This document shows positions 1,525-64,000 of a stretch of 64,000 nucleotides of DNA, piece after piece (positions within the stretch are counted from its first letter, which is position 1; each line of letters opens with the position of its first letter). The stretch is taken from positions 310,001 to 374,000 of the forward strand of contig JAQGEQ010000124.1 of assembly GCA_034620365.1 (NCBI GenBank), given 5' to 3'. The notes beneath the pieces are model-generated. The model was not told where the DNA came from, did not search any database, and saw only the letters and a list, made by a program, of their open reading frames with translations. Both the position numbers and the translations under genes were made by a program. Source of the stretch: Pegea sp. RAD2-039. Taxonomy: Eukaryota; Chordata; Thaliacea; Salpida; Salpidae.

Positions 1525-2562
1525 ATGCAGCCTTGTAAGCATTTCTTTGAGACTGATGGTTTGAATGTTACAATAGTTGATATGAAAGGAAAATATGAAT
1601 TTTCTAAAACTTACTGTAAAACATTAGGTGGGGATCTAGCGCCAATCAACAATCAAAAGAGATTAGATGATACTTTGGACCAATTGGAAGATTGCAAAGA
1701 TGGTTATGGTAAAGTGACACAAAGAAAATCCAACTCTTATCGAATTGGGCTTTCAGTAACAAATGGAACTGGTTTTTGGAGTGATGGAACACAACTTGAT
1801 TTTGATAAACAACAGTCTTTGTTTGAACAAGAAGTTCCAACATTTGATTTAAACACATTTGTTATATATAAGAATGGTTTTAGTAAAATTCTATATGAAA
1901 AAAATACTGGTTTATTTTCTTTATCATTCTTATGTTCCGTGGACAAATCCATTTCATCATTAACAACTGAGATACCCAAACTATCAAACGCATCACTTGA
2001 AAGTCGAATAACATCCATGTCTTCAGAGTATAATCCGCAGATTACTACTACTGGTGAATACAACAAATTTGCAGCAACAACAGAAGCACCAAAAATAAGA
2101 AAAGAACTTATCATGACGTCATCAAATAATAATATAACCAATGGTGGATCAGACAAAACATCAGCAACAACATCATCAACAAGCTTAATGATTGGTACCT
2201 CATTAGGTGTTGTGTTATTGTTGATGATTATTGGATTTGTCATCTACAAGCTATATGAGAAAAATAAAAGAAACAAGAAGAGAACAAACTCTTCTATGGT
2301 TGTGGAAACTAACCAACCAACTGAGGTTGTCGTAAGTGATAGAGAATATGAAAACATCAGTGTTCAAGTTGGTAATAACGAAGCAATTTATCATGAAATT
2401 CAATTTCAAGCAAATGATTCTGCTGCTGATCATTCTAAAGTAGGTACTGATATAGATCATGATTATGAGAATCTGATTTCAATTCAAAATCATGATATAG
2501 TTCAATATTCTGCTAATCATCAATCTATATATGATCAACCAACATCAAACAGATACAAATGA
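1525..2562 (+). CDS. C-type-lectin-like single-pass receptor with ITAM-like tail (G1)
   Basis: 345 residues in one exon. The N-terminal lectin-like domain (about 1-140) has Cys4, Cys31, Cys57 and Cys137, a 'LGGDLAPINN' segment matching the first half of C-type lectin folds, an N-glycosylation site NGT at 80-82 and WSDG at 85-88. No EPN/QPD or WND calcium motif is evident. A Ser/Thr/Asn-rich stalk (140-218) leads to one membrane helix (about 221-241) followed by basic KNKRNKKR, which places the C terminus in the cytoplasm. The tail has YENI (275-278) and YHEI (289-292) exactly 10 residues apart, an ITAM-like pair, then YENL (314) and YDQP (336). Its end lacks the ITIM-like motif of other family members. 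An acceptor-like TTTTTATGCAG ends at 1,478 and an in-frame stop at 1,516-1,518 fixes the start. AATAAA lies at 2,798. Ligand and function are unknown; an immune or recognition receptor is inferred. Confidence 0.85.
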   Translation: MQPCKHFFETDGLNVTIVDMKGKYEFSKTYCKTLGGDLAPINNQKRLDDTLDQLEDCKDGYGKVTQRKSNSYRIGLSVTNGTGFWSDGTQLDFDKQQSLFEQEVPTFDLNTFVIYKNGFSKILYEKNTGLFSLSFLCSVDKSISSLTTEIPKLSNASLESRITSMSSEYNPQITTTGEYNKFAATTEAPKIRKELIMTSSNNNITNGGSDKTSATTSSTSLMIGTSLGVVLLLMIIGFVIYKLYEKNKRNKKRTNSSMVVETNQPTEVVVSDREYENISVQVGNNEAIYHEIQFQANDSAADHSKVGTDIDHDYENLISIQNHDIVQYSANHQSIYDQPTSNRYK

Positions 2563-3538
2563 TCTTACTGCAATATTTTGATAGCAAGAAAAAAAGTTTG
2601 TAAAAATTGCGAAAATGTTTAAAAACAATTGAAAACTTTTAAAAAAATAGATTCTTTTTGTTTGTTTTCTATTTGTTGAATGTTATTGATAAACTCTCTT
2701 TCTTCATCTAAACTCAGAAGCTAATTGAAAAATGACTTTTTGAAAAGCTTCAAAACTTCTTTTTTTCTATTTAAATTAAAAATTGCATTGTACAAAAAAT
2801 AAATTCTGTATTCAATTATATTTTAAGTTTTCCAAATTTTGTTTATAAGTATCGGTTTATAGGGAAAACTTGAAAGTTTATAACAAACTACTGAAACAAC
2901 TGTTTTAAAGCATCAAAATTTCCTTAATAAGTTTTAAGAATTTCTTTTCTACACAAAACTTATGTTAGATCATATATTTAAAATAATATTTATATTACTA
3001 ATAACATTCTTTTTAATTTTATTAAAGAAAAGTTAATAAAGCAGAAAGCAGATATTTTTATATATTTTTAAGACTTTTAAAATTGAATGCTTACAGAAAT
3101 ATATTCAAATTATATCTAAGTTTTGATTATATATTCGAATATTTTAGTTAGTCAATATACTTTGCATGAAAAAAATGATAAATCTATGTTTAAAATTGTA
3201 CTGATCTTCAATGAGTCTTCAATGAGTTCTTGTTGTTTTATCTTGTTGTATCAAGACATACTTTCCAGTTAATTAGTTTACTTCCTGAAAGACTTATTTT
3301 ATAAAGTCTGCTAAGAACAAAATAACATTTGGTTTCGGATGTTATACTAATTTAAGTAAATATTAAAGTTTGGTTTTGAAGAATTGAATAATTCCATTTT
3401 AAATATTAGTATGAATGGGTAAATATATGAAAGTTTGTTTAAAAATACTTTTTATCTTTCGCAAAATGATTCTAATTTATTGTTTTTATGCAGAGTTTTT
3501 TTCTTACGAAATAGTTGGAAAACTTTTATTAAATCATT
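2563..3538. other. Intergenic spacer within the 2-kb tandem duplication
   Basis: 3' flank of the first gene (AATAAA at 2,798-2,803), the duplication junction near 2,840, then the 5' flank of the second gene. A direct tandem 'cttcaatgagt' repeat (about 3,205-3,226) is shared with the upstream regions of the genes at 1,525 and 34,639. A 3' splice-site-like sequence ends at 3,493. Confidence 0.7.
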
Positions 3539-4576
3539 ATGCAGCCTTGTAAGAACGTCTTTGAGACTGATGGTTTGAATGTTACAATAGTTGATATGAA
3601 AGGAAAATATGAATTTTCTAAAACTTACTGTAAAACATTAGGTGGGGATCTAGCGCCAATCAACAATCAAAAGAGATTAAACGATACTTTGGACCAATTG
3701 GAAGATTGCAAAAATGGTTATGGTAAAGTGACACAAAGAAAATCCAACGCTTATCGAATCGGGCTTTCAGTAACAAATGGGACTGGTTCTTGGAGTGATG
3801 GAACACAACTTGATTTTGATAAACAACAGTTTTTGTTTGAACAAGAAGTTCCAACATTTGATTTAAACACATTTGTTATATCTAAGAATGGTTTTAGTAA
3901 AATTCTGTATGAAGAAAATACTGATTTATTTTCTTTATCATTCTTATGTTCCGTGGACAAATCCATTTCATCATTAACGACTGAGATACCCAAACTATCA
4001 AACGCATCAATTGAAAGTCGAATAACATCCATGTCTTCAGAGTATAATCCGCAGATTACTACTACTGGTGAATACAACAAATTTGCAACAACAACAGCAA
4101 AACCAACAATAAGAAAACAACTTATCATGACGTCATCAAATAATAATATAACAAATGGTAAATCAGACAAAACATCAGCAACAACATTATCAACAAGCTT
4201 AATGATTGGTACCTCATTAGGTGTTGTGTTATTGTTGATGATTATTGGATTTGTCATCTACAAGCTATATGAGAAAAATAAAAGAAACAAGAAGAGAACA
4301 AACTCTTCTATGGTTGTGGAAACTAACCAACCAACTGAGGTTGTCGTAAGTGATAGAGAATATGAAAACATCAGTGTTCAAGTTGGTAATAACGAAGCAA
4401 TTTATCATGAAATTCGATTTCAAGCAAAAGATTCTGCTGCTGATCATTCTAAAGTAGGTACTGATGTAGATCATGATTATGAGAATCTGATTTCAATTCA
4501 AAATCATGATATAGTTCAATATTCTGCTAATCATCAATCTATATATGATCAACCAACATCAAATAGATACAAATGA
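3539..4576 (+). CDS. C-type-lectin-like receptor with ITAM-like tail (G2)
   Basis: Tandem paralogue of the gene at 1,525, also 345 residues, with the same residue numbering: Cys4, 31, 57 and 137; NGT at 80; WSDG at 85-88; membrane helix about 221-241; YENI 275 and YHEI 289 as an ITAM-like pair; YENL 314; YDQP 336. Substitutions relative to its neighbour occur across the lectin-like domain (for example HF to NV at 6-7) and the stalk, with only a few in the tail. An acceptor-like TTTTTATGCAG ends at 3,493, 45 nt before the ATG. An in-frame TAA at 3,530-3,532 excludes N-terminal extension, so there is no signal peptide. AATAAA at 4,812. Calling the fold C-type-lectin-like rests on motif spacing, not on an alignment. 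Confidence 0.85.
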   Translation: MQPCKNVFETDGLNVTIVDMKGKYEFSKTYCKTLGGDLAPINNQKRLNDTLDQLEDCKNGYGKVTQRKSNAYRIGLSVTNGTGSWSDGTQLDFDKQQFLFEQEVPTFDLNTFVISKNGFSKILYEENTDLFSLSFLCSVDKSISSLTTEIPKLSNASIESRITSMSSEYNPQITTTGEYNKFATTTAKPTIRKQLIMTSSNNNITNGKSDKTSATTLSTSLMIGTSLGVVLLLMIIGFVIYKLYEKNKRNKKRTNSSMVVETNQPTEVVVSDREYENISVQVGNNEAIYHEIRFQAKDSAADHSKVGTDVDHDYENLISIQNHDIVQYSANHQSIYDQPTSNRYK

Positions 4577-5640
4577 TCTTACTGCAATATTTTGATAGCA
4601 AGAAAATAAGTTTGTAAAAATTGCGAAAATGTTTAAAAACAATTGAAAACTTTTAAAAAAATAGATTCTTTTTGCTTGTTTTATTTTTGTTGAATGTTAT
4701 TGATAAACTCTCTTTCTTCATTTAAACTCAGAAGCTAATTGGAAAATGACTTTTTGAAAAGCTTCAAAACTTCTATTTTTCTATCTAAATTAAAAATTGC
4801 ATTGTAAAAAAAATAAATTCTGTATTCAATTATATTTTAAGTTTTCCAAAAATATCTTAAATTGGAAAATTGTTTCCAGTTAAAACTGAAAAAGCTTATT
4901 CCTATTTATACCTGCTATTTAGTGTATTTTCAATCTTTTAACTTGTAATAAGTTTTAAAAAGTGAAAATGTAAATATTATCTATAGCTAATTATTTACTG
5001 TTTAACAAATAAGTAAATCACTGATTTCTAAAGAGTCTACTTTCTACCATATAACATTGATAACTTCAAATTTCATTCTTATACTTCAATAACATACCAA
5101 CTACATCCACAACTGATTTTGTAAATAAATCTCCTATAAACGCTGCTTCATTTTATATTACTTTGGTTTCAGTCATTATCTGTTTACTTATTTTAAAACC
5201 TATGAATAAAATAAATATAATCAAGCGAAGAAAAACTTTGATGGTATGGATTTTTATTTTAGATAAATTCATGAAATTTTAAAACTTTATTTTTACATTT
5301 TAAAAGTGTTGGACAATTATTAAAATATATTTAAAGATTTTTATTCAAATAAAAGTTGATCAAATTAAGCAATATGTTAACCTATATAAAAGCAAAATGT
5401 TGTTTTATTGTTTTGAAGTAAAGTTGAAGCAAATTATCAGTTATTAAAGAATTTAAATCACAACTTAAAACGGAAAAAACAAATCTGAAAGAAAATTGGT
5501 TTTTATGTATTTTTAAACTACTCTAAATTTAAGTTATTGTATTTTTGTTTAAAAAAACATGGGTTGTTGTATCTTTTCTAAATAAAAAGCTAATCAAATT
5601 TGATTTTATGTAATATTTCTTTTCAATTTAAACGGCTATA
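4577..5640. other. Intergenic DNA; segment repeated at 14.57 kb
   Basis: Positions about 5,001-5,250 recur in direct orientation at about 14,571-14,830, and about 5,240-5,640 recurs inverted at about 33,000-33,370. A diverged further copy of the latter lies at about 25,590-25,900. These mark the ends of the duplicated blocks. No coding potential is seen. Confidence 0.65.
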
Positions 5641-5689
5641 AAGTCTAACGCTCGTAGCCATATTTGCGAAGACATAAATACCAACATAT

Positions 5690-6140
5690 TTTGATTACTC
5701 GTATAATGTTGACAACATTGTCTTTCTTAAAAGTGAATTTTTCTCCTTTTAATATAATTAACTTTCTATGTATTTATTCACTGTTGTATGTTTTGAGGAC
5801 TACTGAAATGCCATGTGTTACATCTTTCTATTTTTCTAACTTAATGGATGTTATTTGTGAGAATGTTTATTAGTGCGAGGTGCTTTCTTCAGACACCCTC
5901 CTTCGCATTTATTGAAATAAATGTCAAACAGTTGTAGATTTCCTATCAAAGCCTACTCCAATAGCCCTGCATTTAATGAAGTGACAACAAGGTAGTGGTA
6001 GTTAAGCAAGATATTTTCAGGTGTGATAGGTGGTGCAAGGTGAAGCAGTATTTTCTTCCGCAAGATGGAATTTGTACCTAAATTATTTACATTAGTGGCC
6101 AATATACTTAAACACTCGTTCATTTCCTAGCTACAGAGTA
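5690..6140 (-). repeat. SINE-like element (candidate tRNA-derived)
   Basis: Read on the minus strand, it has a TAGCTAGG A-box-like start near 6,130, then about 50 nt later GGTTC(A)AATTCC-like sequence resembling a tRNA B box (imperfect here), then a body ending in a conserved 'tttatttcaataaatg' plus 'gagggtgtctga' segment and a further downstream part. Full or partial relatives are at 32,500-32,945 (its inverted block copy), 18,240-18,735 and 60,263-60,690 (downstream part), and at 15,480-15,860 and 21,990-22,275 (tRNA-like head and body). The copies outside the block duplications are diverged and sit in unrelated contexts, so this is an interspersed repeat. Confidence 0.6.
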
Positions 6141-7047
6141 TTTATAAACATTAAAAATTATGAGTTGAAGACTTAAATATCGTTGATGATTTAAAAGGGA
6201 TATTCTCATGTTGTTTGTAATTTTAAGGATTAAATTTTAATTTTACATCAGATATATATAAATGAAGCAAATTACTTTCTAGTTTGTTTTTAATTTTTCT
6301 TGTAGTTACAAAATGATATTTATTTTCTAAGTTAAAACTATTAGGCTAAAAAACGAATAGTTTTTGAATTATAAATTATATGAGTAAAATAAATTTTTGA
6401 AGCGAAATTGTTTTTTTATAATTTTACTTCGTTGGTAAATTGGAAAAATGATAAACAAAATAAATAGATGAAGAGATGTTTCACTGATGACTTATATTTT
6501 AAAGTAATTTTTTCTAAAAATATATTTTCTAAACTATAAATGTTTTGATATTAAAGATACACAGAAAAATCATATGATAGGTCATAAGAATGTTGAATGT
6601 TTACTAACTTAGTTAAAGTTATTTCTACTATTTGACCAGCTTATTCAACTTAGCTTTAGAAGAATTTTAGGGTTAAGCAGGCCATAACCTTACAGTTTTA
6701 TTTTACTCATAGTTTTTGATATGGAGCTTAGATATAGTATTAAGAAAATTTTGGATCTTATTATAGAATATTGGAATTTCTCCTTTATTTATAAACTTTA
6801 TTTTTATTTATTTTGCAGGCTTATTGTAAAAAAACAAAAAAAACTGCTGAATCTGTAAAATTAAGGAATGTAGTTGAAGTTTCAATTATTTGTCGTTTGA
6901 AATAATTAATTAGTTAAATAGATATTTGCAAATGCTTCAAATTATAACATCTCATTCTTTATGTGTAAAATTTGTTTAAGATGATTTTTATTTGTGTTTA
7001 ATGTCTGTTTGCAGGCTTTTGACTAAAAAAACTTTGTTTGCTTCATT
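6141..7047. other. 5' flank of the 7,048 gene
   Basis: AT-rich sequence shared almost unchanged with block B (about 31,590-32,480, inverted). A first acceptor-like TTATTTTGCAG ends at 6,820 and a second, TGTCTGTTTGCAG, ends at 7,014, just 33 nt before the start codon. The segment between them may be part of a 5' leader intron or exon. Confidence 0.5.
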
Positions 7048-8121
7048 ATGGAGCCTTGTAAGTATTTTTATGAGACTGATGGCTTGATTGTTAGAATAGT
7101 TGATACAGAAAAGAACTTGAAAGATTCCACCAAAGCTTGTCAGCAGTTTGGTGAACAGCTAGCTCCCATCAACAATCAGAAGAGATTAAAAGATACTTTG
7201 GATCATTTAGAAGATTGCTACAAGGCTGATGTTCACGGTATACTTGAGGAAGAATTTAGAAACTACCATTTGTACCGTATTGGACTTTCAGTAACAAATG
7301 GAACTGGTTATTGGAGTGATGGAACATCACTTGATATGAACGAACAAGAATCTCTATTTTATAATGATGTAATTCCAATATCTGATCAAACTACGTTTTT
7401 TATAGAAAAAAAATATGTAAATGGAATTAGTTCTGCTCATGAAAACATTTACTATGATAATGCCATTCAAACATTCAACTATCCGTTCTTGTGTTCCAAG
7501 AGCAGCCTGTTTCCACCAACAACACCACCAACAACAACAGATCTTGTTAAAACAACAAAATTTGCAAACTGTGACTCATATACTGAATCAAATGGTAAAA
7601 CTGATCAACTGTCAGTTACGTCATCATCAGCAGACTCATATTTTATGATTGCTACCTCACTAGGATTTGTTCTTTTGTTGGTGATTATTGGAGTACTCAT
7701 ATACAAGCTTTTTAAGAAAAATAAGAGTGACGAAAAAAGAGTGAAATATTCATCTATTAAAGAATCTAATCAACCAAATGAACTTGTTGTGGATGATGCT
7801 GGTTATGCTACTATCAATATTCCAGCAGAAAATATTGAACCAATTTACTCTGAAGTTCGAATAAAAGAACTTGTTGATGATCATTCTATCAAAAATAGTC
7901 AATATGATTATACTGATACTTCTGTTCAAGTTGAAGATCAAGAAGCGATATATGATCTAACTAGAAATGAATCTGTAAAATCTTCTGGTCTTCAATCTAA
8001 CCATTCTCAACCAACACGAAGTGAGAAGAAAACAACTGGTTCTCAACCAACTGTTAATCAAGATGTTGTATATGCTGTGGTTGATAAAAGTCGAAAAACA
8101 CGAAGTGAAACACAAGTGTAA
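7048..8121 (+). CDS. C-type-lectin-like receptor with ITAM-like pair and C-terminal ITIM (G3)
   Basis: 357 residues, one exon. Lectin-like domain: Cys4, Cys31, Cys57, Cys149; 'FGEQLAPINN' at 34-43; 'YRIGL' at 76-80; NGT at 84; WSDG at 89-92. A short Thr/Pro-rich stalk with an extra Cys175 precedes the membrane helix (about 199-219) and basic KLFKKNK. The tail carries YATI (253-256) and YSEV (267-270), 10 residues apart, then YDYT (286), YDLT (302) and a consensus ITIM, VVYAVV, at 340-345. The tail thus combines an activating-like pair with an inhibitory-like motif. TGTCTGTTTGCAG ends at 7,014 and an in-frame TAA at 7,024-7,026 confirms initiation at the ATG and the absence of a signal peptide. 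AATAAA at 8,222. Its inverted duplicate is the gene starting at 31,586: tails differ at one residue, ectodomains at many. Confidence 0.87.
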   Translation: MEPCKYFYETDGLIVRIVDTEKNLKDSTKACQQFGEQLAPINNQKRLKDTLDHLEDCYKADVHGILEEEFRNYHLYRIGLSVTNGTGYWSDGTSLDMNEQESLFYNDVIPISDQTTFFIEKKYVNGISSAHENIYYDNAIQTFNYPFLCSKSSLFPPTTPPTTTDLVKTTKFANCDSYTESNGKTDQLSVTSSSADSYFMIATSLGFVLLLVIIGVLIYKLFKKNKSDEKRVKYSSIKESNQPNELVVDDAGYATINIPAENIEPIYSEVRIKELVDDHSIKNSQYDYTDTSVQVEDQEAIYDLTRNESVKSSGLQSNHSQPTRSEKKTTGSQPTVNQDVVYAVVDKSRKTRSETQV

Positions 8122-10611
8122 GCTTTCAATTTAAAAACTTTCTAGTTGTTCACTTCAGTTTTGTTTTCTGTTTTACTAATTTTTAAAAATTCTATAATTT
8201 TTTTGTTTTCTAAAAATTCTGAATAAAGTGTTTCGTTAAAAGTTATTTTAATTTTTGAAATATTAATAATTAATCACAGAATTTATTTAGAAAAATACGA
8301 GGTAAACACAAACTACATCTCTTATAATAAAATTGATTTACTTTAGTCTGAAATTTAACTTAAATGATAATATGGTCAAGAGTTTTCTAATTAATTTTAC
8401 CAAAAAAATCAAATTATTACTCCTTTATATACAAATAAAATAATAACAAATTAACAGAACTTCGTAGAAAAATTTTAGTACAATAAATTGTTGTATTTCT
8501 AAGAATATCAAATATTAACTCTTGTCAAACTTTGGATTTGTTTAAATGATATTATTTATATAAATAAACATTTATTGAATTTGAAATAGTTCAAACCAAC
8601 TACTTGGTTATTGAAACTTATTGCAACAGAATAATCTAGTTTGATAAAATTCTATCTTTATAACTAGAAGCAAAGAAAATCTGACTGATTATTTACTGAT
8701 GAGAATCATTTGAAATTGAAGCACGGAAGGCCAATTATTTATTTTAGATATTTCTAATATTGTCTGTATGTTATTTTGAATACTTTAATAATTTTGTTTC
8801 TAGAGTATATGAAATTAAAATGATTTCTATGATGTGAAAAGAAAGGTAATAAGAAGTCGGTGCTTAAGATCATAAAAACTGTTAAATAATTTATTTAGAG
8901 TTTTAATAGCGAGCAAATAAAAAGTGGATAAAAAACCATTGAAAGATTAAAAAAGAATGCAGTTGGACGTCAGTAGTGTAGAGAAATGGTTGGAACTCTC
9001 ATGGTGATATTCTAGTTGAAATAAGACTAGATAAAAAGTAGATAGAAAAAAATAGAGAAAATGGAAGAAATCAATATGATTTGTTTACAACTTACTATTT
9101 GTAAAGTATCCTTAAATTTAATCTAAACTTTTAAGTATTTTATTAAAAGCAATAAATGAATTCTAGAAAATCGTTTTTAAAAATTAAGACAAATTTATAA
9201 ATAAAAAAAGATACAAAGTAGTTTCTGATTAAAATTTTTTTAAATCAAAAAAATTCCAGAAACTGAAATTATAACTTCTGTTGCAGTAAAACCAACAAAT
9301 TGTTAGTAACTATTGATATATTTTTAGTATTTTATTTGCAATTAAACGGATAAAACAAACTTTTTGTCGTAGAAGCTTAAAGAAAAATAAATCAGATTAA
9401 AAGATTTACTTATGCTAAAAATGTTGAGTATTAAAAAAAGTTTAAGTTAAATAATCTTTACTAATTTTAAATTAGGTTTTATATACTGTTATATACTTTT
9501 ATATATGTTCCTTTCTTGATTATAAATTTTCTTTATATAATGCATGGCTTTTATACTAAAATAGATATAAACATTTCTTCAACAAAAATTTACTTATATT
9601 TTGTTTATAAGGTGATTTTAATATAGGATTGTTTAATTATTGACAGAATCAATTTTGTAAAAGATATTTAGAACTGATTAGTAAATGCAAAAAGTTATTT
9701 CTACACTTAACTGAAATGAATTCACAATTTTATAAATTGAGTTAAGATTAATAGAAATTGTTTTCATTATTAAAAAATTTGGTTCAGTAGAATAAAAATA
9801 TAAAAATTTAGTTTAGAAAAGAAATTATTCAAAAAACTATTTCTAAGCATGAAAGATTCCTTAAGAAGTTCTATTAAATCATTCTATATAAGGAGTTTAT
9901 GTTTAATAAATATTAAAATGAAATATCTAGATTTATATTACTATTAATAATCTGTCTATTTTTATTCCAACAATGTTGAAAGTTCAGAAAGTTTATAAAA
10001 AAATGAAAAGTATTTTGCTGTAAAAAGTATTGAAACAATTTCAAATAAGTTTTAACTTCAAATAGTTTAGTTAATCATGATAATTTGCTTAAATATAATT
10101 CTGCTTGTTCTTGTACTCTTGCATTATTCTGAATTGAGTCGTTTTTGTTTGTTATAAAGAAACAATTTTCAGGTAATTGTAATAAAACATCGAAAACGTG
10201 ATACTTAAAGTCAACTACAGACAGAATGGAATTTGATTTTAGTTATTATGTTAGTCATTTATTACAATAAATATATTTATGACCAATATTAAAATTATTA
10301 AAGATTGTTATTATTATGTTTACAATTATTTACAACCAATAAATATTTGGTTGTTTAGCTATTATTTGATTTTTATTTTAAGTCATGACATATTTATTGT
10401 TTAAAATTGAAAAACTGAAAATCCAGTAGATATTTAAAATATTTTAGCTTTAAAAATAGAATTGTCAATTATGGCAGGTTAAATATTCAAAGTTCATTTC
10501 AAAGCAACTTTTTGACTTTTAATATAAGGTATTAAACTAACTGTTCGCATTTTTTATGTCTTCTTCAGTTTTTGGTTATTAAATGATCTAGAAAGCTTCT
10601 TTCATTTAACA
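8122..10611. other. Intergenic DNA of block A
   Basis: No gene found. A somewhat less AT-rich patch at about 8,700-9,070 is preserved in block B (about 29,570-29,950, inverted) but is missing from block C, where 41,455-41,693 replaces about 1 kb. It shows no clear open frame and could be an old element. An acceptor-like TATGTCTTCTTCAG ends at 10,568, 43 nt before the next start codon. Confidence 0.55.
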
Positions 10612-11535
10612 ATGAAGCCTTGTAAAGAATTTTATGAAACAGATGGATTGACTGTAAGAATAGTTGATGGAAAAAAGAACTCAAACAATTCTGTTAATAA
10701 CTGTCAAAATTTTGGTGAAGAGCTAGCTCCAATTAACAATCAGAAGAGATTAAATGATACTTTGGACCAATTGGAAGATTGCTATAAAAATAATGTTTCT
10801 GATGTAGAGTTAAGAACAAAAAATGAATACCAGATCGGGTTTCATGTCCAAAATGGAACTGGATTTTGGAGTGATGGAAGTTCATTTAAGTTGAATATTA
10901 TTAATGGAATTAAACCAAGAAAATTTGCTGAACATTTAGCTGAAAGATCTCACAAGAGAGTATTTTATGTAAACAGAGATTTAAAGAGAATTCATTCTTA
11001 CTATGATACTGTTGATAACAGCTTGACATCGTTTTTATGTTTTAAAAACAAATCAATTTCATCAACAACAGCTTCAACAACAGCTTCAGCAGCAACAGAA
11101 CCGAAAAGTTTCATGGCAGAAAATGGTCAACATAAAAAATTTTCAACCTTACCAGTTTCAGCAAATTCATCTTTAGTGATTGGTACCTCATTAATATTTG
11201 TTGTATCATTCTTGATTTTGGGATTTCTTTTCTACAAGCTGTATAAGCGAAATAAGGAAAATAAAATCGATGAAAGCCACGATTCGGAAGCCAACCAACC
11301 AACTGATCTCGTTGTTAATGATACTGAAGTTGAAATCATCCATGTTCTAACAGAAAATATCCAACAAGATCATGAAATCCGACATCAAGTAGAAGGATCT
11401 GCTGAAGATCAATCTAAACAAAATCAATCAACATCAACCAACTACAATACAACTGATCCTCAACCAGTTGGTCCGATTGCTCACAATGTCATCTATGATG
11501 CAGTTGATAATAATCAAGAAAATTATTGTGAGTAA
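10612..11535 (+). CDS. C-type-lectin-like receptor with ITIM-only tail (G4)
   Basis: 307 residues, one exon. Lectin-like domain with Cys4, Cys31, Cys57 and Cys143, NGT at 81 and WSDG at 86-89. A short Ser/Thr/Ala stalk (148-187) is followed by the membrane helix (about 188-208) and basic KLYKRNKENK. Where relatives carry the YATI/YSEV pair, this tail reads VEII and DHEI, so both ITAM-like tyrosines are missing. The C-terminal ITIM VIYDAV (293-298) is kept. It therefore looks inhibitory-only, by inference. It has close paralogues at 26,482-27,633 (different mid-domain, expanded stalk) and 38,943-39,860 (nonsense mutated). The acceptor-like site ends at 10,568; no in-frame stop lies between it and the ATG, so a longer N terminus is not formally excluded. 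AATAAA near 11,678. Confidence 0.85.
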   Translation: MKPCKEFYETDGLTVRIVDGKKNSNNSVNNCQNFGEELAPINNQKRLNDTLDQLEDCYKNNVSDVELRTKNEYQIGFHVQNGTGFWSDGSSFKLNIINGIKPRKFAEHLAERSHKRVFYVNRDLKRIHSYYDTVDNSLTSFLCFKNKSISSTTASTTASAATEPKSFMAENGQHKKFSTLPVSANSSLVIGTSLIFVVSFLILGFLFYKLYKRNKENKIDESHDSEANQPTDLVVNDTEVEIIHVLTENIQQDHEIRHQVEGSAEDQSKQNQSTSTNYNTTDPQPVGPIAHNVIYDAVDNNQENYCE

Positions 11536-14174
11536 CATCAGAGTCAGCAAGAAATTTACAAAGTGGTTGAAGATGAATTCTAAAAATGTAATTGGCAACC
11601 CTGAAATTGTTTTCTGTTTCTATTTTCTTAATAATTAAATGGATATTTGTACTTTATGATTATTTTTTATTAAACCTAATAAATAACTCTTCTTTTCTGT
11701 TGTATATTAGTTTGTATATATTACTAGTCATATTTTTAACCATTTCTAACTATTGTGCAATAATTAATTCAAAAATTATACGATGATAAAAAAATGTTTT
11801 TTATTTTTATTATTTTGTATACTTTTTTACGAGAGCTTTTCAAGTTTGTTTTCTTGAGTATTGTAAATATCAAATTAAATAATAAATTCTACAGATTAAG
11901 AGATCGTAAACAATTTTTACAAATAAAAAATAAATTCAGTTTGTTAATCTTAATCCAGTTTCATATTAAAATAACTGAAGTCAAAGAAATTATAATCAAA
12001 AAACTTTCATTTATCATAAATAAGAAGTTCTTAAAATTACAATTTCAAATTTGACTTTTTTGAACCAATCAAATCTTTCAACTTCTTTTACTTAAAAAAA
12101 ATGAAACTAAATTATTGTATGATGACTATTATATTTTGTTTTATTATTTTTAATAGTTTGACTTCATTTTAGAAATTATAAACTTGTTAAAATTCTGTTT
12201 GAAATCTTCTTACCGTTTACAGTTTATAATAATAAATTTCTGTTTAAAAAGTTATAAATAATTAAAAGAAAGAACTTATAATTTAGTTTTTGTATAGATT
12301 TCAGGAAATATTAAAAATAGTTTTTTCTTTCAAAACTAAAATTAAAATAATAAAATTACCTGGTGCAAAGCAAAATGATGTTTTATTACTTTTAAGTAAA
12401 ATTTAATTTAAAAATTACCAATAATTATAATACTTATTATTTATATTATAAATTGAAGTTACTTATTCAAATAGTTTTCATTTGTTTTTAAGCTGCATTG
12501 AAAATAAATTCTTGAATTTTTCTTTTTATAAATGAATCTTATAAAAATTTAAGAAAGTTTTTCTGTATCTTTAATAAACAACAAAAGCATAGAAACTTAA
12601 TTTATTTAACTTTCTTGTTAACTTAAAGGTTAATTTTTGCATACTAATACAAAGTATGAAAAGAGTTTTATCACTTGTTTATTGATGGTGGTTGATAATT
12701 AATATTGAGTCTTCTCATTTTCATTCTGATTTGTAAGATGTCAACGTTTTTATGTAAAATTTTCATTAAATCTGTTACACCTAGCAAATTTTCGAATAAA
12801 TCTTAAATACAAATTTTAAGAATTTATTAGTTTCTAATAATTTATGTTTTTTTTTGTACTAGGTACAAACTAACTACAAAAAAATAAATATTTTATCTAT
12901 AGCAATATTGTGATACAAAAAGTGATAACTAGATGATTAAAACTATCATTTTAACTTGATTTGTCCGGCAGTTTTATAAGAAACGTTGAAATAGATAGAT
13001 TTTAAATCACAAATATTATTTTATTTTTGTAAAAACTCTAAGAAATTTCTGTTTAGAAAATAAATGTTTTTGAATTGCTAATAAAAGGCTGTTTCTCCTC
13101 ATACAGTTTGAAAGATCTAATAAAAAGAAATATTAATTAGATGTTTGTTTTAAACTTCGATTATCTATAAGATGTAACCTTATGTTAAAATTATCAATCA
13201 AAGTTCATTCTAATTAAAAGAAATATATTTTTGGAAAGAAAAATACATTAGGTTCATAAGAATTTAAGTCGTTAAACAAAAAGTCTTCAAAAGATGAAAA
13301 ATAAATCTGTTATTTATATTGTTATTTATGTAAGTAAAAGGTATTTAGATTTTTATATTTATCAATTAAATATTTTCTTCTTAAAGCGATAATTAAGTAA
13401 AAATGATGCAAAGATAATTGCTGATTTCAATCAACCTAAAGATTATCAAACTGACGACACTTAATAATACTTGGAAAAAACTTACAGATAAAATTTATTA
13501 AAACTATCATAAACTCAGATCGAATCATCTATGATCAATCTAATAACAGTTAACTGGTCAATAGCTAAAATAAAATGTTGTTTATACACTTGTTGTTAAG
13601 AGTTGTAAAACACTAATGTGTTGAAACTGCACTAATATAAGAATAAGAAGCTATTTAGAACAACATTAACATCTTTCACTTTACCATCTTATAATTTATT
13701 TTAAAGAAACTCAAAGTTACTTTATATAATTTCCCCTAAAATGATAAATTTATGTTAATAAAGTATTAGTTTCTACAAACTTTACCATGGATAATAAAAT
13801 TATTTTTGTTGTATTTTTTTTGTAAAGCAACACACTTCACACAAACATAAATTTTGTAAAAATGACTTTTAGTTTTAATTTAAACATTTAATAAGCTCAT
13901 TTATGGTAATTAAAAGTTTTTTCAAAATTATTCCCAAAACCAGGACTAAGGAGAAAATTTTAATAAATAATAAACTAGAGAAACTATTATTAAGGATGAT
14001 TTATATATAAAAGATTTAGATATTCTAGAAAATATAACTTTAATGTATAGATACTGTATTGGTAAATATAATAACTAAATAATTAGTAATAAGTTTAATT
14101 TAAACTTTTTGTAACATCAATTCAAATAAATCTATCAGTTTCTATTAATTTTAACTAAGTAAAATTATATAAGT
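11536..14174. other. 3' flank of the 10,612 gene, AT-rich, inverted copy at 36.36-38.94 kb
   Basis: Small open frames here (for example 11,592-12,054) are A/T-rich, rich in Ile/Phe/Lys/Asn, and are not kept as frames in the inverted copies, so I do not call them genes. The sequence runs collinear with block C down to about 36,360, where it breaks abruptly at 14,174. Confidence 0.7.
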
Positions 14175-14354
14175 GATTGTAATTATGAGACTCTGGTTTC
14201 AATTGAAGATCCAGTTCAAAATAGATTTATAAACTCTGATCATTCTACTACTAATCAAGCAACATCAACCAGATACTATGAAATTGATGTCAAACCAGCT
14301 GATGGTTCAATAGATCCATATAGAACTTTTGTAATCAGTCAAGCAAGAAAATAA
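14175..14354 (+). pseudogene. 3' fragment of a G9-type receptor gene
   Basis: 60 codons, including the stop, match residues 300-358 of the gene at 33,563-34,639 with almost no change, starting at the DCNYETL segment and ending in ISQARK and a stop. The 3' flank to about 14,560 also matches. The 5' 80% of the gene and its promoter are absent: sequence left of 14,174 matches about 36,360 instead. A deletion of about 2.6 kb relative to the minus-strand block explains this. No promoter or start is visible, so it is a relic. Confidence 0.88.
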
Positions 14355-26049: not shown

Positions 26050-26481
26050 TCTTTAAACAGAAATTTGATATTTTTAAAACGTTTGAAAAAGATATAAATA
26101 AGTTTAAAAATTGTCTACAATCTTTTAGTCTGTAGAATTGATTATTTAATATTTACAATACTTCAGAAAACAAACTTGAAAAACTCTCATAAAAAAGTAT
26201 ACAAAATAATAAAAATAAGCAACATTTTTTTATCATCGTATAATTTTTGAATTGATAATTACACAATAGTTAGAAACGGTTAAAAATATGACTAGTAATA
26301 TATACAAACTAATATACAACAGAAAAGAAGACTTATTTATTAGGTTTAATAAGAATTAACTATAAAGTACAAATATCCATTTAATTATTAAGAAAATAGA
26401 AACAGAAAACAATTTCAGGGTTGCCAATTACATTTCTAGAATATCTTCAACCACTTTGTAAATTTCTTGCTGACTCTGATG

Positions 26482-42213: not shown

Positions 42214-42219
42214 TCAAAC

Positions 42220-45200: not shown

Positions 45201-46143
45201 ACCAACTTTTATTAGTTAGTTGATTTTTCATAAACTAAATCAAAAACATTGTTGTTATAACTTTTTCTCTTTGCAAAATAATCTAATTAGATTTACTAAT
45301 AATACATTTCAAATATTTGAAACATATTTTTTTATCAAAATCATCTTATTTTTGTGAAAGTTCAGTTTTACAGCTTTTAACTTATTTTAAGTCTTTAAAT
45401 GTTTATACACAAGAATTACAAATACAAAGATAAAAAAACTTTGATTCGATTGGTCTTATTAAATATTTGAAAATACTTTTTTATTTTATTGTATATACAG
45501 AAGTAAATATAAAAGTAGCATATTTCAGATTATTTCTAACTAAGTACTGATGACTCTTTTAATACAACATCAATTTAAATGAGCTTCCAAAGCAAATTGT
45601 TTTAGATAATTGATGATAAATAAACGCATTTACCCATTTTAAAGAAGTTGAAAAATAAATAAACTTTTCTTTTTAACTAATGTTATGTGTTTATTCATTA
45701 TAAACAGTTCAAAACATTAAATTTAATATTGGACTTTTGCTATTTTTCAAAAAGTTTTTTTAAAATGTTTAGCATTTTGTAATTTCAACAGTTTTGTAAT
45801 CTTTTTAATAATCTTTTTAGTATTATCATGCTAAATTAAAGATTTTTCAAAACTACTTCAAAACGTAATAAAATATCTAAAATATTTGATTGAAACTTAA
45901 TATAAACATAAAGAGAAAATATGAGAGATATCATTTTACTTTTGATTATATTCCACAAAACTATTTTCAGCTTAAATATTACTTAATTACAGATATCATT
46001 TATCATTTGGGTTGTTAAATAGCAAAATAATAAGAACTAACAATTAACAAAACAATGTATCATTTAAAACTAAAACTTTCAGTAAAATAGAAAGGATAAC
46101 TGAAGTGAGGAGACGGAAAAGTAGAAGATTTGAAATCAACTTT
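42220..46143. other. Long AT-rich spacer, first duplicate
   Basis: No receptor gene. A less AT-rich patch at 43,060-43,275 contains a 27-codon acidic open frame (43,190-43,270, reading K-S-N-E-K-E-S-T-D). In the second copy (51,230-51,420) its ATG is ATA but the frame remains open. A small exon or an old repeat are both possible. Nothing else recognised. Confidence 0.5.
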
Positions 46144-53000: not shown

Positions 53001-54298
53001 TAGTTGTAATACAATAAAGTTAGTTTTACTAAATGCTGGAAACAGTTTGTTTAAATTCAATTTTTCTTTGTAAAGAAATAATTTTAAGATTTTGACCAAG
53101 AAAATCAAAACAAATAAGAATTGAAAACTATTATTGTTTTTAAAAGTTTAGTTGGTTTGTATTCCTAAATATGAATAAAAAGTTAAAACGTTTTAGTGAA
53201 AAACTTGATATTCACAGTTTTGTTTCATATTTTAATTATTTATGATAGTTAATATATAAAATAACAATTTCATTTACTGGTAAGTAACTTCCTAAGGATT
53301 AATAGAAGCAAGTTGCAATTTACTTTTGTTTTGTTTTTCAAATTTAAAACAAAACCAACTTATATTAGTTAGTTGATTTTTCATAAACTAAATCAAAAAC
53401 ATTGTTGTTATAACTTTTTCTCTTTGCAAAATAATCTAATTAGATTTACTAATAATACATTTCAAATGTTTGAAACATATTTTTTTATCAAAATCATCTT
53501 ATTTTTTGTGAAAGTTCAGTTTTACAGCTTTTAACTTATTTTAAGTCTTTAAATGTTTATACACAAGAATTACAAATACAAAGATAGAAAAACTTTGATT
53601 CGATTGGTCTTATTAAATATTTGAAAATACTTTATTATTTTATTGTATATACAGAAGTAAATATAAAAGTAGCATATTTCAGATTATTTCTAACTAAGTA
53701 CTGATGACTCTTTTAATACAACATCAATTTAAATGAGCTTCCAAAGCAAATTGTTTAAGATAATTGATGATAAATAAACGCATTTACCCATTTTAAAGAA
53801 GTTGAAAAATAAATAAACTTTTCTTTTTAACTAATGTTATGTGTTTATTCATTATAAACAGTTCAAAACATTAAATCAAATACTGGACTTTTGCTATTTT
53901 TCAAAAAGTTTTTTTTAAATGTTTAGCATTTTGTAATTTCAACAGTTTTGTAATCTTTTTAATAATCTTTTTATTATTATCATGCTAAATTAAAGGTTTT
54001 TCAAAACTACTTCAAAACGTAATAAAATATCTAAAATATTTGATTGAAACTTAATATAAACATAAAGAGAAAATATGAGAGATATCATTTTACTTTTGAT
54101 TATATTCCACAAAATTATTTTCAGCTTAAATATTACTTAATTACAGATATCATTTAACATTTGGGTTGTTAAATAGCAAAATAATAAGAACTAACAATTA
54201 ACAAAACAATTTATCATTTTAAAACTAAAACTTTCAGTAAAATAGAAAAGATAACTGAAGTGAGGAGACGGAAAAGTAGAAGATTTGAAATCAACTTT
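47080..54298. other. Long AT-rich spacer across the duplication junction
   Basis: 47,114-47,730 is the duplicated 5' flank. 47,731-50,372 is single-copy and purely A/T-rich without open frames. 50,373-54,298 repeats 42,220-46,143, including the less AT-rich patch at 51,230-51,420. No gene seen in over 7 kb. Confidence 0.65.
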
Positions 54299-55234
54299 TC
54301 ACACTTGTGTTTGGCTATGCTTCTTTTCACTATACTTTTTTCGACTTTTATCAATCACTGCATAGATAGCATTTGGATACGCTTGGCTAGTGATTGGTCG
54401 ATGGTAACCTTGTTGATCTACATCAGAAGTGGATTGGTAATCAATAGGAGCTTTTATAGCATCTTGAGGAAGACTGTATACTTCATCAAACTCTTCAATA
54501 GGGACATTGACAGTGGTGCAATCAGCATTATCAACCACAAGCTCAGTTGGTTGTTTAGGATCCACAGCGACAGAATAGTTCAAGGACTTCTTGTAATTCT
54601 TCTTATTAACTTTCGCTTTGTAGCAAAGAAGTACAATGACTATGACGAGGATAGAGATAATCACAATGAGTATAATTTGTAGTGTTGGGAAGAATGATGA
54701 TTCATAAGTCTCACAATTAGTTGCAATTGTTGGTTCATCCTGCTGTATCAATGTCTTCATGATCTCAGTTGTAGTTGTAGGAGCTGGTTTACTCTTAGAG
54801 CAGAGAAATGGAAGATCAGAATCATCATTATAAGTTGGTTTAAATCGAATTTTGTTAAAATCTTCTTTTTGTACAAAAAAAGTATTTCCATCAGATGAAG
54901 GAAGTACGCCATTTTCAAACAAAGATTTTTGCTCATCAACATCCAGTGGTGATCCATCACTCCAAGAACCAGTTCCATTTTGGAAATTAAGCCCAACTCT
55001 AAACATATTCCGCATTCTGTATTCTACTTCAAGAGTTCGAATACCATGAACATCAGTCTTGTAGCAATTATCCAAATGATCCAAAGTATCATTTAATCTC
55101 TTCTGATTGTTGATCGCAGCGAGCTTTTCACCAAACTGATGACAAATATCAACAGAATCCTTCCAATTCTTTTTAGAATCGACGACCCGAAGAAGCAAGC
55201 CATCTGACTCATAATGATACTTACAAGTGTCCAT
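54299..55234 (-). CDS. C-type-lectin-like receptor, tandem partner of G11 (G12)
   Basis: 311 residues and near-identical to the gene at 46,144 except for a patch at residues 121-142 (FVQKEDFNKIRFKPTYNDD against FIDKGDFHGVQFKSVNNDD), a few single changes (I for Y at 30, R for W at 75), and QQDEP/QKYEP in the stalk. WSDG (91-94), Cys4/31/57/145, membrane helix (about 182-205), CTTV (Tyr to Cys at the YATI site), YSLP and AIYAVI are all kept. TTCGTTTACAG with exon start at 55,268, 34 nt upstream of the ATG. The clustered changes in otherwise matching DNA point to conversion from another paralogue or to selection on the end of the lectin-like domain. Confidence 0.86.
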   Translation of the reverse strand: MDTCKYHYESDGLLLRVVDSKKNWKDSVDICHQFGEKLAAINNQKRLNDTLDHLDNCYKTDVHGIRTLEVEYRMRNMFRVGLNFQNGTGSWSDGSPLDVDEQKSLFENGVLPSSDGNTFFVQKEDFNKIRFKPTYNDDSDLPFLCSKSKPAPTTTTEIMKTLIQQDEPTIATNCETYESSFFPTLQIILIVIISILVIVIVLLCYKAKVNKKNYKKSLNYSVAVDPKQPTELVVDNADCTTVNVPIEEFDEVYSLPQDAIKAPIDYQSTSDVDQQGYHRPITSQAYPNAIYAVIDKSRKKYSEKKHSQTQV

Positions 55235-58139
55235 GTTACAGATAAGATTATTTTTTTTAATTAATGATCTGTAAACGAAATTAAAAATTTGATTAAATTC
55301 AGAAACACAAAATCAATTTATGTCACTTCAAAATTCTATAAAAGTTAATCAAAAAAAGTAAAAACTTCAAACTTTATTTCATAATAAAATATTTGATTGA
55401 AAATCAAAACAATAATGGGATAAATTTCGTCAATAAAATAAAATTCCTTTAGATGACTTAATTATTTCATTTTATATTTAATTGAAATGAAAGATTTGTA
55501 AAGTTTTAATTTCTAAACTATTTTTTTATGCTTTTGTCAGGTTTTCACTTTTATAGGCAACAATATTCAAGCTACAACTATATATAGTTTAAAGAGCTCA
55601 ATAAACAATACTATATGAGATGAAAATTATCTTTTGATAAAGTTAGAAATAACTAAAAGTAAGTCTTCAATAATGGAATATACTTCAAAAAATAAATCAG
55701 TAAATCTAGAATAGTTCAACTTTATAAAAACTGAAATAAAGTTGAAGAGAATATTTACTTCAAATAATTATTATTGACTATTGATACTAAGAAGTATTTT
55801 AAAGATTATTATTCTGATTTATAAAAAGACAAACTAAATTAAAGTCTTAAATAATTTCTTTAACACTTAAAGATTTTATTTTAAAGTAAGTTTAAATTTA
55901 TTTATAAAATAATTATCAAATTATTTACTTAAGTTTCATGATTTTTAATTTTTATGAATAAGAATATTGATGCAATCTCTATTTTAGATAATGATTAAGA
56001 TAAAAACTTGTTATAAGGTTAAATACAAGAATTAATTCCCTCTAAAATGTACATAAAGCTAAAAGATAACTATAATGAAATTAAACAATTAAATCTTACT
56101 TTAAATAAAACAGTTATATATTCTTTCATATAAACAATTAGAGTGAAAAACAAAAGCTCCAAGATAAATTAACTATTAAGTAAACTGAAGATTATTAATT
56201 ATAATTAGTCATATTCAATAATGTAGCTCAAACACATTATAATATTTTGTTATTATTATTAAACATCTTAGATATATAAAAAGAAATCTGTATTATTAAC
56301 ATTCTTTATAATTATCAATACTTTAACAATATATATTTCATATAATTAAGACTTAGTTAGTTGATTTCTATTATTTTATTAAACATTAAAAAAAATTGTA
56401 AATACTAATTCTTAGCTTTAAGAAACATTTTAATAAATTTTTAACTTGAAAACTACAATTTTATAATCCTATTTAGCATAATTACTGATTTTAATTAGAC
56501 TATTTTTAAGTAAATTAGAATACTATTAAGTTCAATTTTTATAATGAAAATAAGCAAATTTTTCTAAATAAACTTAAGCCAATAAAGACCATAACACGAT
56601 TTTTCTATTTTAAGAATATGTAACAACTTTGAAAAAAATACTTTTAATTCAAAAGTTATTCTAACTTTATATTGAAAACTCTTTTTCTAGGTCTAAACTC
56701 TAAAATCAAGTAAGCTACAGTACCAGCTAACTATTAATAAAAACTAGTTTGTACAAACTTAATAGAAAAATTATTACAAGGTTTACTATAGAAATACTTT
56801 GTATACTTATTCTTATACAAAGTAAAAATTTCTTATAAACATTATAAGAGTAAGTTTATTATAAAACTAAATAAAGAATTGTTTTTAAATATTTATAAAC
56901 TACATAAAATAAAACAGCGTTAATAACTAGTTTTTTTAGGCCACATATAAACTGTAGAAAGATGAAGTAATAGAAATCAGAACCATTCTCGTCGATAATA
57001 GTTATATTGAAGTAACCTCAAGTTTATGAATCAAAGTATCAGAAACTTTGATAAGAAACTGCATTTTGTGATACTACTGAAATAAAGTAATGAAAAAGCC
57101 TAAGGAAATTTGTTGTTTTTTAGGTTCATTGTTCAAGTTATATAAACATTTTACCATAAAAAGCTAATAACTTATTTTAAAGACTTTAAAACTGTTGCAG
57201 TTTTAATTACATCATATAAACTACATTTAAAAACAAAGTTAACATATTTTATAAAGATTAAGAAGATTAGAAGTTAGAGATAAAAATTATCTGAATAAGA
57301 ATTTCATGTCATTAAAATCCAAAATATAAAACTTGCATACAACTTGTATAATCTTTAACCCCATGAGATGCTAAAAAATGTTTTAAAAGAAGTTAGAAAG
57401 TTTGTTTTTTAAAATTTCGAACAACTTTAAAATAGTTATTACAAACATAAGAAAATGAATACTAGTACAAAACTATAAGAACTAGACAAAAAACTCAAAA
57501 TAAATTTGCTATAAATAGAGTTTTTTTAACAAGCCTTTTCGATTCAAATTCGTTTATCTGATTCAGATACTCATCGGATAATGATTTTAAATCTATTTAC
57601 CTTTAAAAGGTTCGAATTTGAAAAATAAATAAAAACTTTTGCTGTTTATTTTATAATAATCAAACATTTTGAGAAAGTATTTTGTAAAATGTAACATATG
57701 TTGAATGCTACAATTTGATTGTTATAAAAATTTATAAGAGGGACATAGTTTTATCAGTATTAAAATCAAATAACTATTTATAACATCGTTAAAAAACTTA
57801 GAAGTTAAAGTTTATAAAGATTTAAGCTTTTATTTGAAAGAACAGTTTCAAATTTGAATTCTATTAATTTTGTCACATTTAAACAGAAAGTATTTTATCA
57901 CACTTTTTTTAGGAAGTATACTTTCACTAAGTGATTTCGTTTTTTAAACGAGCTGTGGACTGAAAATTTTCAGCCTGAAATATAATATCCTGAATTCTCG
58001 TATGAGAAAATCGTCTGCTTAATCTTGATTAGAAATAAAAATTCTGGTAGAAAACAAAGAATCTTATTCGTACTTTTTAATTAGATATTTGCATATTATC
58101 TATGCATATTTGTGGATAAAATAGTTGATATGTAAATGA
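55235..58139. other. AT-rich intergenic DNA
   Basis: 55,235-55,888 is the duplicated 5' flank of the 55,234 gene. After that the sequence is unique and A/T-rich. No gene, RNA or repeat family recognised. Confidence 0.6.
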
Positions 58140-62450: not shown

Positions 62451-63319
62451 AAATCCATTTATATTTAAAGATTTAAGAAGATTTAAGGACACATTGACCT
62501 GCTTCGTTATTAGTAGTTATAGTATTATATTTCTATCTTTACATTGTTTTATTTTAAACCAATTAAATTTGTTTATATTTTAAAAAGATTTATTTACTCC
62601 GTAATATTTTATCATTCACAACTTTTGCTAATTAGTTTCTTCTATATCACCGTTTTAGAACTAAAATAGATAATTTTTTATCATTTTATTTAGGTCTATA
62701 AGTTCTTAGATTTATAGGTTTAAAATGACATTAATATTTAAATTATGATCTATTTTCTTTTAATATATTATTATTTTAACTTTGTTTGTATATTTATACT
62801 TTTAAACAGATTAAATATTTATTCTAAGTTTTTAAATTAATCTTTGTATAATCTTTATCTTTATTATGGCAGGAGTTGATTGCTTCATTATATATACAGT
62901 TAATGTTAAAAGATTTAAAATTAGTTTTGTTTATTATTTGATTGTTTATTATTTTAATCTTTAAGTCTACTTAAAGAGGTATTCTTTGAGATTTATAGGC
63001 AGAAGCAGTAGATGAAAGGAGTTCATTTCATCTACTTTTAGGAGCTGCAGTTTGTAAAAGTAACGTTACTATAAATAAATCAAAGTTTAAGTTGATATAT
63101 TTCAGAATAATTTGTTTCTATTTTTTATATTAAGTATTATTGTTTAGAAAATCTTATTATAAAAATGAAAACTGAATAAATTAAAAATTGAAAGAATCGA
63201 ATATTTATTTGATTATTAAGATTTTTTTACATCTAGAAACAAGTTTCAACTTTTATTGAAATATTTTTCAGAATTTTGTTTTAAATTAAGAATGAAAATT
63301 TCCTTTTTTGTATTTTACG
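62451..63319. other. 5' flank of the 63,320 gene
   Basis: AT-rich. Contains a perfect 11-bp inverted repeat, AGTAGATGAAA / TTTCATCTACT (63,007-63,017 and 63,026-63,036) with an 8-base loop, of unknown role. An acceptor-like ATTTTTCAG ends at 63,271, 48 nt before the start codon. Confidence 0.6.
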
Positions 63320-64000
63320 ATGGAAGTTTGTAAAGATTTTTATGAAACTGATGGTTTGGTTGTCAGGATAGCTGATGAAGAAAAGAATTGGAAAGATTCA
63401 GTTGATTATTGTCATCAATTTGGTGAAGAGCTAGCTCCAATCAACAATCAGAAGAGATTAAATGATACTTTTAAACAGTTGTATGACTGCAAAAAGAATG
63501 ATGAAGATTCAGAAGTATTAAAAAGAAGTAATTATTCATATAGGATCGGATTTAAAATTGAAAATGAAATCAGCCCTTGGAGTGATGGGACATTACTTAA
63601 TTCTAGTCAGCAAGATTCCTTGTTCGTAAGCGGTCTAATTCCAACATCAGAAAATAATTTCTATATAAAAAGAAGAAGTTTTAAAAGAATTTTATTTGAT
63701 TCAAATCGAAGTAAGAATCTTCATTATTTATGCTCAAAACCAATTACAGTGAAGGAGCAACAAGCAGATATAAGAATCAGTACTGGAAGTGAAATATGTA
63801 TGAGTTCATTTACGAGTATATCTTTAATTATTGGCATTTCAGTTGGATTAGTTCTATCTCTACTCCTTACTGCTTTTGTGATATTCAAACTTGTAAAAAA
63901 ATTGAAAAAATTTAATAAGGCGATACTTTACTCTGTAACAGTAGGACCGCGGGCACCAACTTGTCTGGAAGTCTTAGAGGCTGATTATACTCCAATCAAA
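63320..64000 (+). CDS. C-type-lectin-like receptor, truncated by window end (G13)
   Basis: 227 codons are open to the end of the window. Cys4, Cys31, Cys57 and Cys138; 'FGEELAPINN' (34-43); WSDG at 87-90. The usual NGTG before it is replaced by ENEIS, so the conserved N-glycosylation site is lost. The stalk is very short (about 142-165), then a membrane helix (about 168-189) and basic KLVKKLKK. The visible tail begins like the others and shows YTPI (223-226), where relatives have YATI. An in-frame TGA lies between the acceptor-like site (ends 63,271) and the ATG. N-terminal sequence is closest to the 47,079 gene (NWKDSVDYCHQFGE). The tail end lies outside the window. Confidence 0.85.
   Translation, partial: MEVCKDFYETDGLVVRIADEEKNWKDSVDYCHQFGEELAPINNQKRLNDTFKQLYDCKKNDEDSEVLKRSNYSYRIGFKIENEISPWSDGTLLNSSQQDSLFVSGLIPTSENNFYIKRRSFKRILFDSNRSKNLHYLCSKPITVKEQQADIRISTGSEICMSSFTSISLIIGISVGLVLSLLLTAFVIFKLVKKLKKFNKAILYSVTVGPRAPTCLEVLEADYTPIK

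Follow-up and report, generated by a model that had tools for sequence, protein, structure and literature searches.

The 64,000-nucleotide stretch analysed here (the window; C107:310001-374000, in the 105.7-Mb, 387-contig genome of Pegea sp. RAD2-039) holds a cluster of genes that probably encode tunicate cell-surface receptors with an N-terminal C-type-lectin-like domain (CTLD), whose heads appear to pass between genes as cassettes and which would serve the recognition of pathogens or of self and non-self; we place moderate confidence in this reading as a whole. A tblastn search of the window with 46 family open reading frames (ORFs) located the family at 15 places. Of these, 13 are gene copies and two are fragments with a tail only, the same count as in the first-pass annotation of this DNA. 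The 12 window ORFs that start with Met show the order proposed there: head, Ser/Thr stalk, one hydrophobic helix, basic stretch and tail (for copy 39860-, helix and tail were measured solely on the piece after its stop). Window copies are named by the window position of their ATG, with a trailing minus for the reverse strand; labels such as 68132 and 356147 are C107 positions, and some of these genes lie outside the window.

In the mechanism that we propose, the genes would multiply by duplicating in tandem or inverted orientation. A block that extends from about the gene start to just beyond the lectin domain would be exchanged, presumably by conversion, so that one head comes to sit on different tails; further exchanges would give one tail to different heads. 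The helix would act as a reverse signal anchor, carrying the leaderless head out of the cell on its Ser/Thr stalk, where its ligand would more likely be a protein than a sugar. Tail tyrosines, in YxxI/L/V motifs and in some pairs resembling the immunoreceptor tyrosine-based activation motif (ITAM), would bind SH2 proteins once phosphorylated. An SH2 search of the genome lists 33 stretches. Such a system could give differing outputs for a shared specificity in pathogen or self/non-self recognition.

Probable head cassettes on different tails

The 'MDTCKYHYES' head is carried by six genes. Of their 15 pairs, 11 combine heads of 83-92% protein identity with tails of 11-42%. Near-identical heads on different tails, as seen here, are the first part of the definition of paired receptors; the second is opposite tail motifs, activating and inhibitory, on the shared head. 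This head sits on three stalk-helix-tail modules, in 68132/75841/72173 (the last of which ends shortly past the helix), in 356147/364302 and in 237013. Comparison of the DNA of 75841 and 356147 showed 2-10% difference from -60 to +420, against 43-63% upstream of the block and 39-52% past +480. Within the shared block, which extends from about the start of the gene to shortly beyond the lectin domain, identity is 91-95% among genes that cannot be aligned on both sides of it or cannot be aligned downstream. In shared-head pairs with different tails its 5′ start lies at -50, -1 or +6 and its 3′ end at +463 to +471, with the domain ending at +435 or +438. The exception is 237013 compared with 356147 and 364302, where the block begins at -393 and the upstream DNA is shared as well.

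The reverse arrangement also occurs. Gene 302192 shares tail DNA with 311519 and 313533 (93.5-93.8%), with heads 53-55% identical, and copy 34639- matches 1525 and 3539 at 93.9-94.2% from the end of the stalk through the helix to the middle of the tail, the head not being shared. Copies 10612 and 27633- differ by 0-9% in flanks and tail, up to the end of the duplication at about +1300, and by 24-42% across nt 100-600. The mosaics suggested by the first-pass annotation are thus seen in protein and in DNA comparisons, and gene conversion or unequal exchange is their likely cause. In these single-frame and probably trans-spliced genes the lectin domain appears to act as a cassette that can be exchanged, a feature absent from that annotation.

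Recent copies were compared along their length to locate where they differ. Copies 7048 and 31586- are mostly 0-5% different, with 8-9% in four 100-nt windows and peaks of 12% at nt 0-100 and 16% at nt 300-500. For 47079- and 55234-, values of 13% and 6% fall at nt 300-500, with 0-6% elsewhere. The peaks for 10612 and 39860- (10% and 35% at nt 400-600) lie mainly in the stalk, and 1525 and 3539 show no divergence peak. Head divergence was clearly raised in three of seven recent pairs (317027/340522, 356147/364302 and 320528/336485). Variation among the six shared heads affects 33 of 147 columns; 12 of the variable columns fall within the 17 columns 121-137, a segment predicted in the model of a second subfamily to run from the end of a short strand through a loop and the next strand into a turn. 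These patterns support the import of divergent pieces into heads; positive selection, as judged from these sequences, is not supported by the data.

Lectin-like head, putative signalling tail and transcript start

Comparison of the modelled 7048 protein with the PDB returned a C-type-lectin-like fold, the Foldseek matches including NKR-P1B, LLT1, Dectin-1 and CLEC-2. In a model of a second-subfamily protein, compared in secondary structure only since the structure search was limited to the 7048 model, the elements follow in the same order. This fold is thus predicted with high confidence for the N-terminal domain, as the first-pass annotation had proposed by eye. Two cysteines, C31 in the first helix and C149 at the domain end, are invariant in both alignments made (A1, 20 rows; A2, 19 rows). 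Six of ten scanned window proteins matched Pfam Lectin_C below the curated cut-off (best 21.2 against 22.6 bits). Of the more distant relatives in the genome, L029, L030 and L022 scored above the cut-off, L032 below it, and L036 and L017 gave no match; P0127, a public protein from a JGI contig, was also above it. A sequence search of solved structures with one window protein gave no match.

Head statistics were taken from 39 of the 46 frames, those with a Met start and a recognisable domain end, seven being left out. None of the 39 heads contains EPN, QPD or WND. EPN/QPD and WND are the motifs of calcium-dependent, sugar-binding C-type lectins, and the family lies outside that classical group. 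Because the head is without the classical sugar and calcium motifs, a protein ligand seems likelier than a sugar.

The tails were described in the first-pass annotation as of ITAM and ITIM (immunoreceptor tyrosine-based inhibition motif) type. The 34 long tails contain 62 YxxI/L/V motifs, compared with a mean of 33.8 and a maximum of 51 in 1000 shuffles. The ITAM-like pair YxxI-x10-YxxI/V is found in 10 of the 34 genes, in about four related subfamilies (shuffled mean 0.25, maximum 3); five of the ten are among the 13 window ORFs. The strict ITIM, with 16 occurrences in these tails, was not above chance (shuffled mean 9.5, maximum 20). The first half of the description is upheld and the second is not; since paralogues are not independent, none of these counts is a clean probability.

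Judged by architecture and evolution alone, these genes most likely act in recognition, whether immune or of self against non-self. Gamete or mate recognition, as in self-sterility, could take the place of immunity, and genes for recognition in reproduction are likewise quick to duplicate and diversify. The ITAM-like tails would point instead to immune-type signalling, and we regard mate recognition as rather unlikely.

A second alternative concerns the start of the protein. The genes appear leaderless, as first noted: no signal peptide is seen in the sequence, judged without a dedicated signal-peptide predictor, and the N-termini of 12 window ORFs are not strongly hydrophobic (12-residue mean at most 0.95). 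A signal peptide could be encoded in an upstream cis-spliced exon, the conserved ATG then being internal. A pyrimidine-rich YAG, which might be a cis acceptor, lies 32-46 nt 5′ of the ATG in 11 of 13 window genes, compared with 23% of random non-coding windows (related copies in this count are not independent), and the frame is open across the YAG in five copies (10612, 27633-, 31586-, 39860- and 55234-). In the other eight (1525, 3539, 7048, 16901, 20084, 34639-, 47079- and 63320), however, an in-frame stop lies 9-27 nt 5′ of the ATG, which means that no leader could come from an exon spliced on at that stop or upstream of it. Close paralogues differ in this respect (47079- closed, 55234- open), and all 20 aligned rows have the start Met in common. 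Relatives L029, L030, L032 and L036 (on C1, C100 and C284), and P0127, likewise begin at the domain or within about 30 residues of it. An upstream leader exon is accordingly a quite unlikely explanation.

The acceptor is readily explained by trans-splicing. The 16-nt leader published for Ciona (PMC7986045), followed by GT, has 585 matches in the genome with at most two mismatches, against 77 for a reversed control. Among the copies listed, 33 are exact and spaced about 199 bp apart in a tandem array (C4:1135044-1142219, L048-L050) whose unit consists of the leader, GTAAGTG and, by eye, a short hairpin; further copies are scattered across the genome. The VPS45 gene neighbouring the cluster (C107:240614-242281) has its best named matches in Phallusia mammillata, Ciona intestinalis and Styela clava. 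A midpoint-rooted tree built from the query plus 27 of the 120 listed proteins places it beside Ciona and Phallusia (100/100) and puts Styela in the other half. The animal is thus very probably a tunicate with Ciona-type trans-splicing, and joining of a spliced leader at the acceptor-like YAG would be the simplest reading of the 5′ ends. A rotifer affinity was also considered and was rejected: the bdelloid leader gave no match in the genome with up to two mismatches, and VPS45 and the Ciona leader point to a tunicate.

A third alternative is a birth-and-death array of little function, made diverse through recombination alone. The pooled dN/dS (ratio of non-synonymous to synonymous substitution rates) of 12 pairs is near 1 in stalk (1.04) and tail (0.89), and one stop-bearing copy and two fragments bear out the pseudogenes noted in the first-pass annotation. 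Against this, the same pooled ratio is 0.63 in the head and 0.48 in the helix, all four figures being blurred by mosaics, and the block ends recur at the same place. Long frames also remain open despite large divergence. In 11 of 13 copies the ATG starts an uninterrupted single frame of 283-383 codons. In a simulation, 50-260 random substitutions, numbers that we set to resemble the divergence of paralogues, would add on average 3.3-12.6 stops to five such frames, and chance is therefore not the source of the long frames. A low-function array is very unlikely.

The orientation of the protein was judged from the residues flanking the helix. In all 13 window ORFs, Lys and Arg number 0-2 over the 15 residues that precede it and 5-8 on the side that follows. 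By the positive-inside rule the basic side of a helix faces the cytosol, which argues for a head outside and a tail inside; with no leader, the helix would then be needed as a reverse signal anchor. The converse, a cytosolic head with the tail directed outward or into a vesicle, would agree with the lack of a signal peptide and of sequon enrichment in heads (61 N-glycosylation sequons, shuffled mean 51.3, maximum 69), but with the basic cluster tail-side in 13 of 13 ORFs, the Ser/Thr stalk head-side and none of 39 heads having fewer than four cysteines it is the least likely alternative.

Several results, the sequon count among them, weigh against recognition receptors with exchanged lectin-like heads. 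Four of the ten scanned window proteins had no Lectin_C match even at E 1, and protein 26485- scored above the cut-off of an unrelated Pfam family, Stevor, across its Ala/Ser-rich stalk region, a match taken as a composition artefact. Any YxxI/L/V is absent from 12 of 45 tails. In the shared-head group one tail has a strict ITIM (68132) and none an ITAM-like pair, and among the analysed genes no head was seen to be shared between an ITIM tail and, as its opposite, an ITAM-like one. Three of the seven recent pairs showed no clear rise in head divergence, and for 68132/75841 head divergence was no higher than that of the tail. The test for positive selection on the head gave equal proportions of non-synonymous and synonymous differences in its second half (pN 0.085, pS 0.085, p = 0.87, six pairs, with 320528/336485 omitted).

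Genes of the window and the wider family

The window has a GC content of 21-28% in 4-kb steps, and an Rfam scan of it gave no family at threshold. On the forward strand, two tandem twins of 345 amino acids lie at 1525-2562, with the tail YENI-x10-YHEI, and at 3539-4576. The modelled 357-amino-acid gene at 7048-8121 has an ITAM-like YATI-x10-YSEV and a C-terminal VVYAVV; in the DNA 5′ of its ATG (7000-7047) the acceptor-like YAG lies at 33 nt and the in-frame stop at 24 nt. The gene at 10612-11535 (307 amino acids) resembles 27633- in tail and flanks, with a mostly unlike head. Those at 16901-17821 (306 amino acids; without the WSDG motif, tail with DYATI and VIYAVV) and 20084-20935 (283 amino acids; without an acceptor-like YAG under the rule used) follow. 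The copy at 63320 is truncated by the window end (63320-64000), its match running to contig position 374024.

On the reverse strand, the gene at 26482-27633 (383 amino acids) has a long Ala/Ser stalk from a 12-bp tandem array (26861-27093). The inverted twin of 7048 lies at 30519-31586 (355 amino acids), its frame open further 5′ with a second Met there, and a 358-amino-acid gene lies at 33563-34639. The copy at 38943-39860, interrupted by one TAG, is a probable pseudogene. Two tandem twins of 311 amino acids, both with the 'MDTCKYHYES' head, occupy 46144-47079 and 54299-55234. The tail-only fragments, at 14175-14351 (forward; matching residues 300-358 of gene 34639- at 98% identity) and 41970-42212 (reverse; matching residues 277-357 of gene 7048 at 98.8%), both sit at duplication edges. 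The duplications comprise two tandem ones (816-2836 with 2834-4850, 96.4%; 42221-47736 with 50370-55891, 97.5%) and a broken inverted repeat (5231-14175 with 26105-40977, pieces of 94.6-97.1%).

Short-period tandem arrays within coding sequence lengthen the stalk with Ala, Ser and Thr at 26861-27093 and at 39322-39414. Separately, 25 copies of an 18-bp unit at 23628-24085 leave several frames open on both strands; this is apparently a simple repeat, not a gene.

The first-pass annotation had called for a genome-wide search. One window protein matches 116 stretches on 15 contigs, a lower bound in which some genes yield two stretches. Clusters lie on C107 from 68 kb to 374 kb and on C200, C247 and C254, with a more distant one on C100. 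The DNA analysed holds the 46 family frames, each of at least 150 codons, and does not cover many of the stretches on C200, C247, C254, C100 and C107:260-300 kb. In a set of 5.8 billion proteins a single query returned three relatives and a 20-row profile seven, including those three. These searches returned no homologue from a named species; their word-based prefilter may miss distant ones, and absence from Ciona is not proven. P0127, a leaderless CTLD protein of 442 amino acids that has a single hydrophobic helix and YCEI in its tail, suggests that the leaderless design may extend beyond this genome. No description of a leaderless tunicate CTLD family was found in the open-licence literature at the level of titles and abstract openings.

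Some members of the family elsewhere on C107 have repetitive tails. In L009 and L010 (75841-77394 and 68132-69475) the tails consist of repeats of about 34 amino acids (102-nt steps), unequal in copy number between the genes; L023 (200234-201604) has 'FYEEPTSISTTNPSKVISND' repeats, and L021 (188126-190198) a 503-residue tail with 'DDVTDTRDDVSV' repeats. An inverted gene pair (214679-215668 and 223405-224394, 98.1% over 2.2 kb) is an inverted repeat or possibly an assembly effect; it is adjoined by two copies of a hydrophobic-stretch gene (210312 and 227759), the one scanned giving no Pfam match. Outside the family, two related ORFs lie at 88274-89473 and 98991-99866, with leucine-rich repeats in the latter, the sole one scanned, and C249:898501-969526 holds 14 separate Lectin_C stretches above the Pfam cut-off.

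Comparison with known receptor systems

The family resembles the KLR/CLEC receptors (NKR-P1, Ly49, Dectin-1, CLEC-2) in its CTLD fold, stalk, single helix, tyrosine-motif tail and clustered genes. KLR genes have introns, whereas the window genes are single open frames. KLR/CLEC receptors carry an ITIM, ITAM or hemITAM, or a charged residue in the helix; of these motifs, the window family has the ITAM-like pair above chance and the strict ITIM at chance level. Vertebrate natural killer (NK) lectin receptors are type II, with an N-terminal cytoplasmic tail (PMC11484026). In the window family the head comes first, the helix from residue 170 or later (12 ORFs) and the tail last, the opposite topology remarked on in the first-pass annotation; KLR/CLEC membership fails because of this order. 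More tentatively, a tunicate lineage may have built, independently of NK receptors, a large leaderless, N-out CTLD system with ITAM-type tails, in which a head cassette from about the trans-splice acceptor to the domain end moves between tails; such a locus might serve allorecognition or histocompatibility, a possibility that we hold well below the general reading.

Neuregulin-1, an Ig/EGF growth-factor precursor, exports a large N-terminal ectodomain without a cleavable signal peptide. The window family would share the leaderless ectodomain but belongs to the CTLD proteins, not to Ig/EGF; if our reading is true, it would clearly exemplify the export of a large, folded ectodomain that has no signal peptide, and single-frame genes with short 5′ ends would make expression, topology and knock-out work easy.

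Among tunicates, Botryllus CD94 and CiCD94-1 are CTLD proteins of blood cells (PMC5465252). They differ in being single proteins, the Botryllus one type II (PMC5465252). FcoR, the group of fester co-receptors from the fuhc locus of Botryllus schlosseri, is described as type I with Y-x-x-I/L/V core motifs, as ITIM or hemITAM (PMC12065747). It shares with the window family a tunicate multigene organisation, type I order and Y-x-x-I/L/V tails, but has a signal sequence and Ig and sushi domains in place of a leaderless CTLD in a single open frame. Ten scanned window proteins gave no Ig or sushi match, which places the family outside FcoR.

A parallel to the cassettes is found in CEACAM paired receptors, which have a signal peptide. 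In mammals and Xenopus, gene conversion restricted to the ligand-binding exon keeps a shared domain on different tails (PMC5112662). The two systems are alike in a ligand domain shared across different tails; in CEACAM this is an Ig domain with exon boundaries, whereas in the window family the exchanged block ends within one open frame. If our reading is true, a second, lectin-based and tail-inside family whose head cassettes pass between tails would point to more than one origin of the paired-receptor design among chordates.

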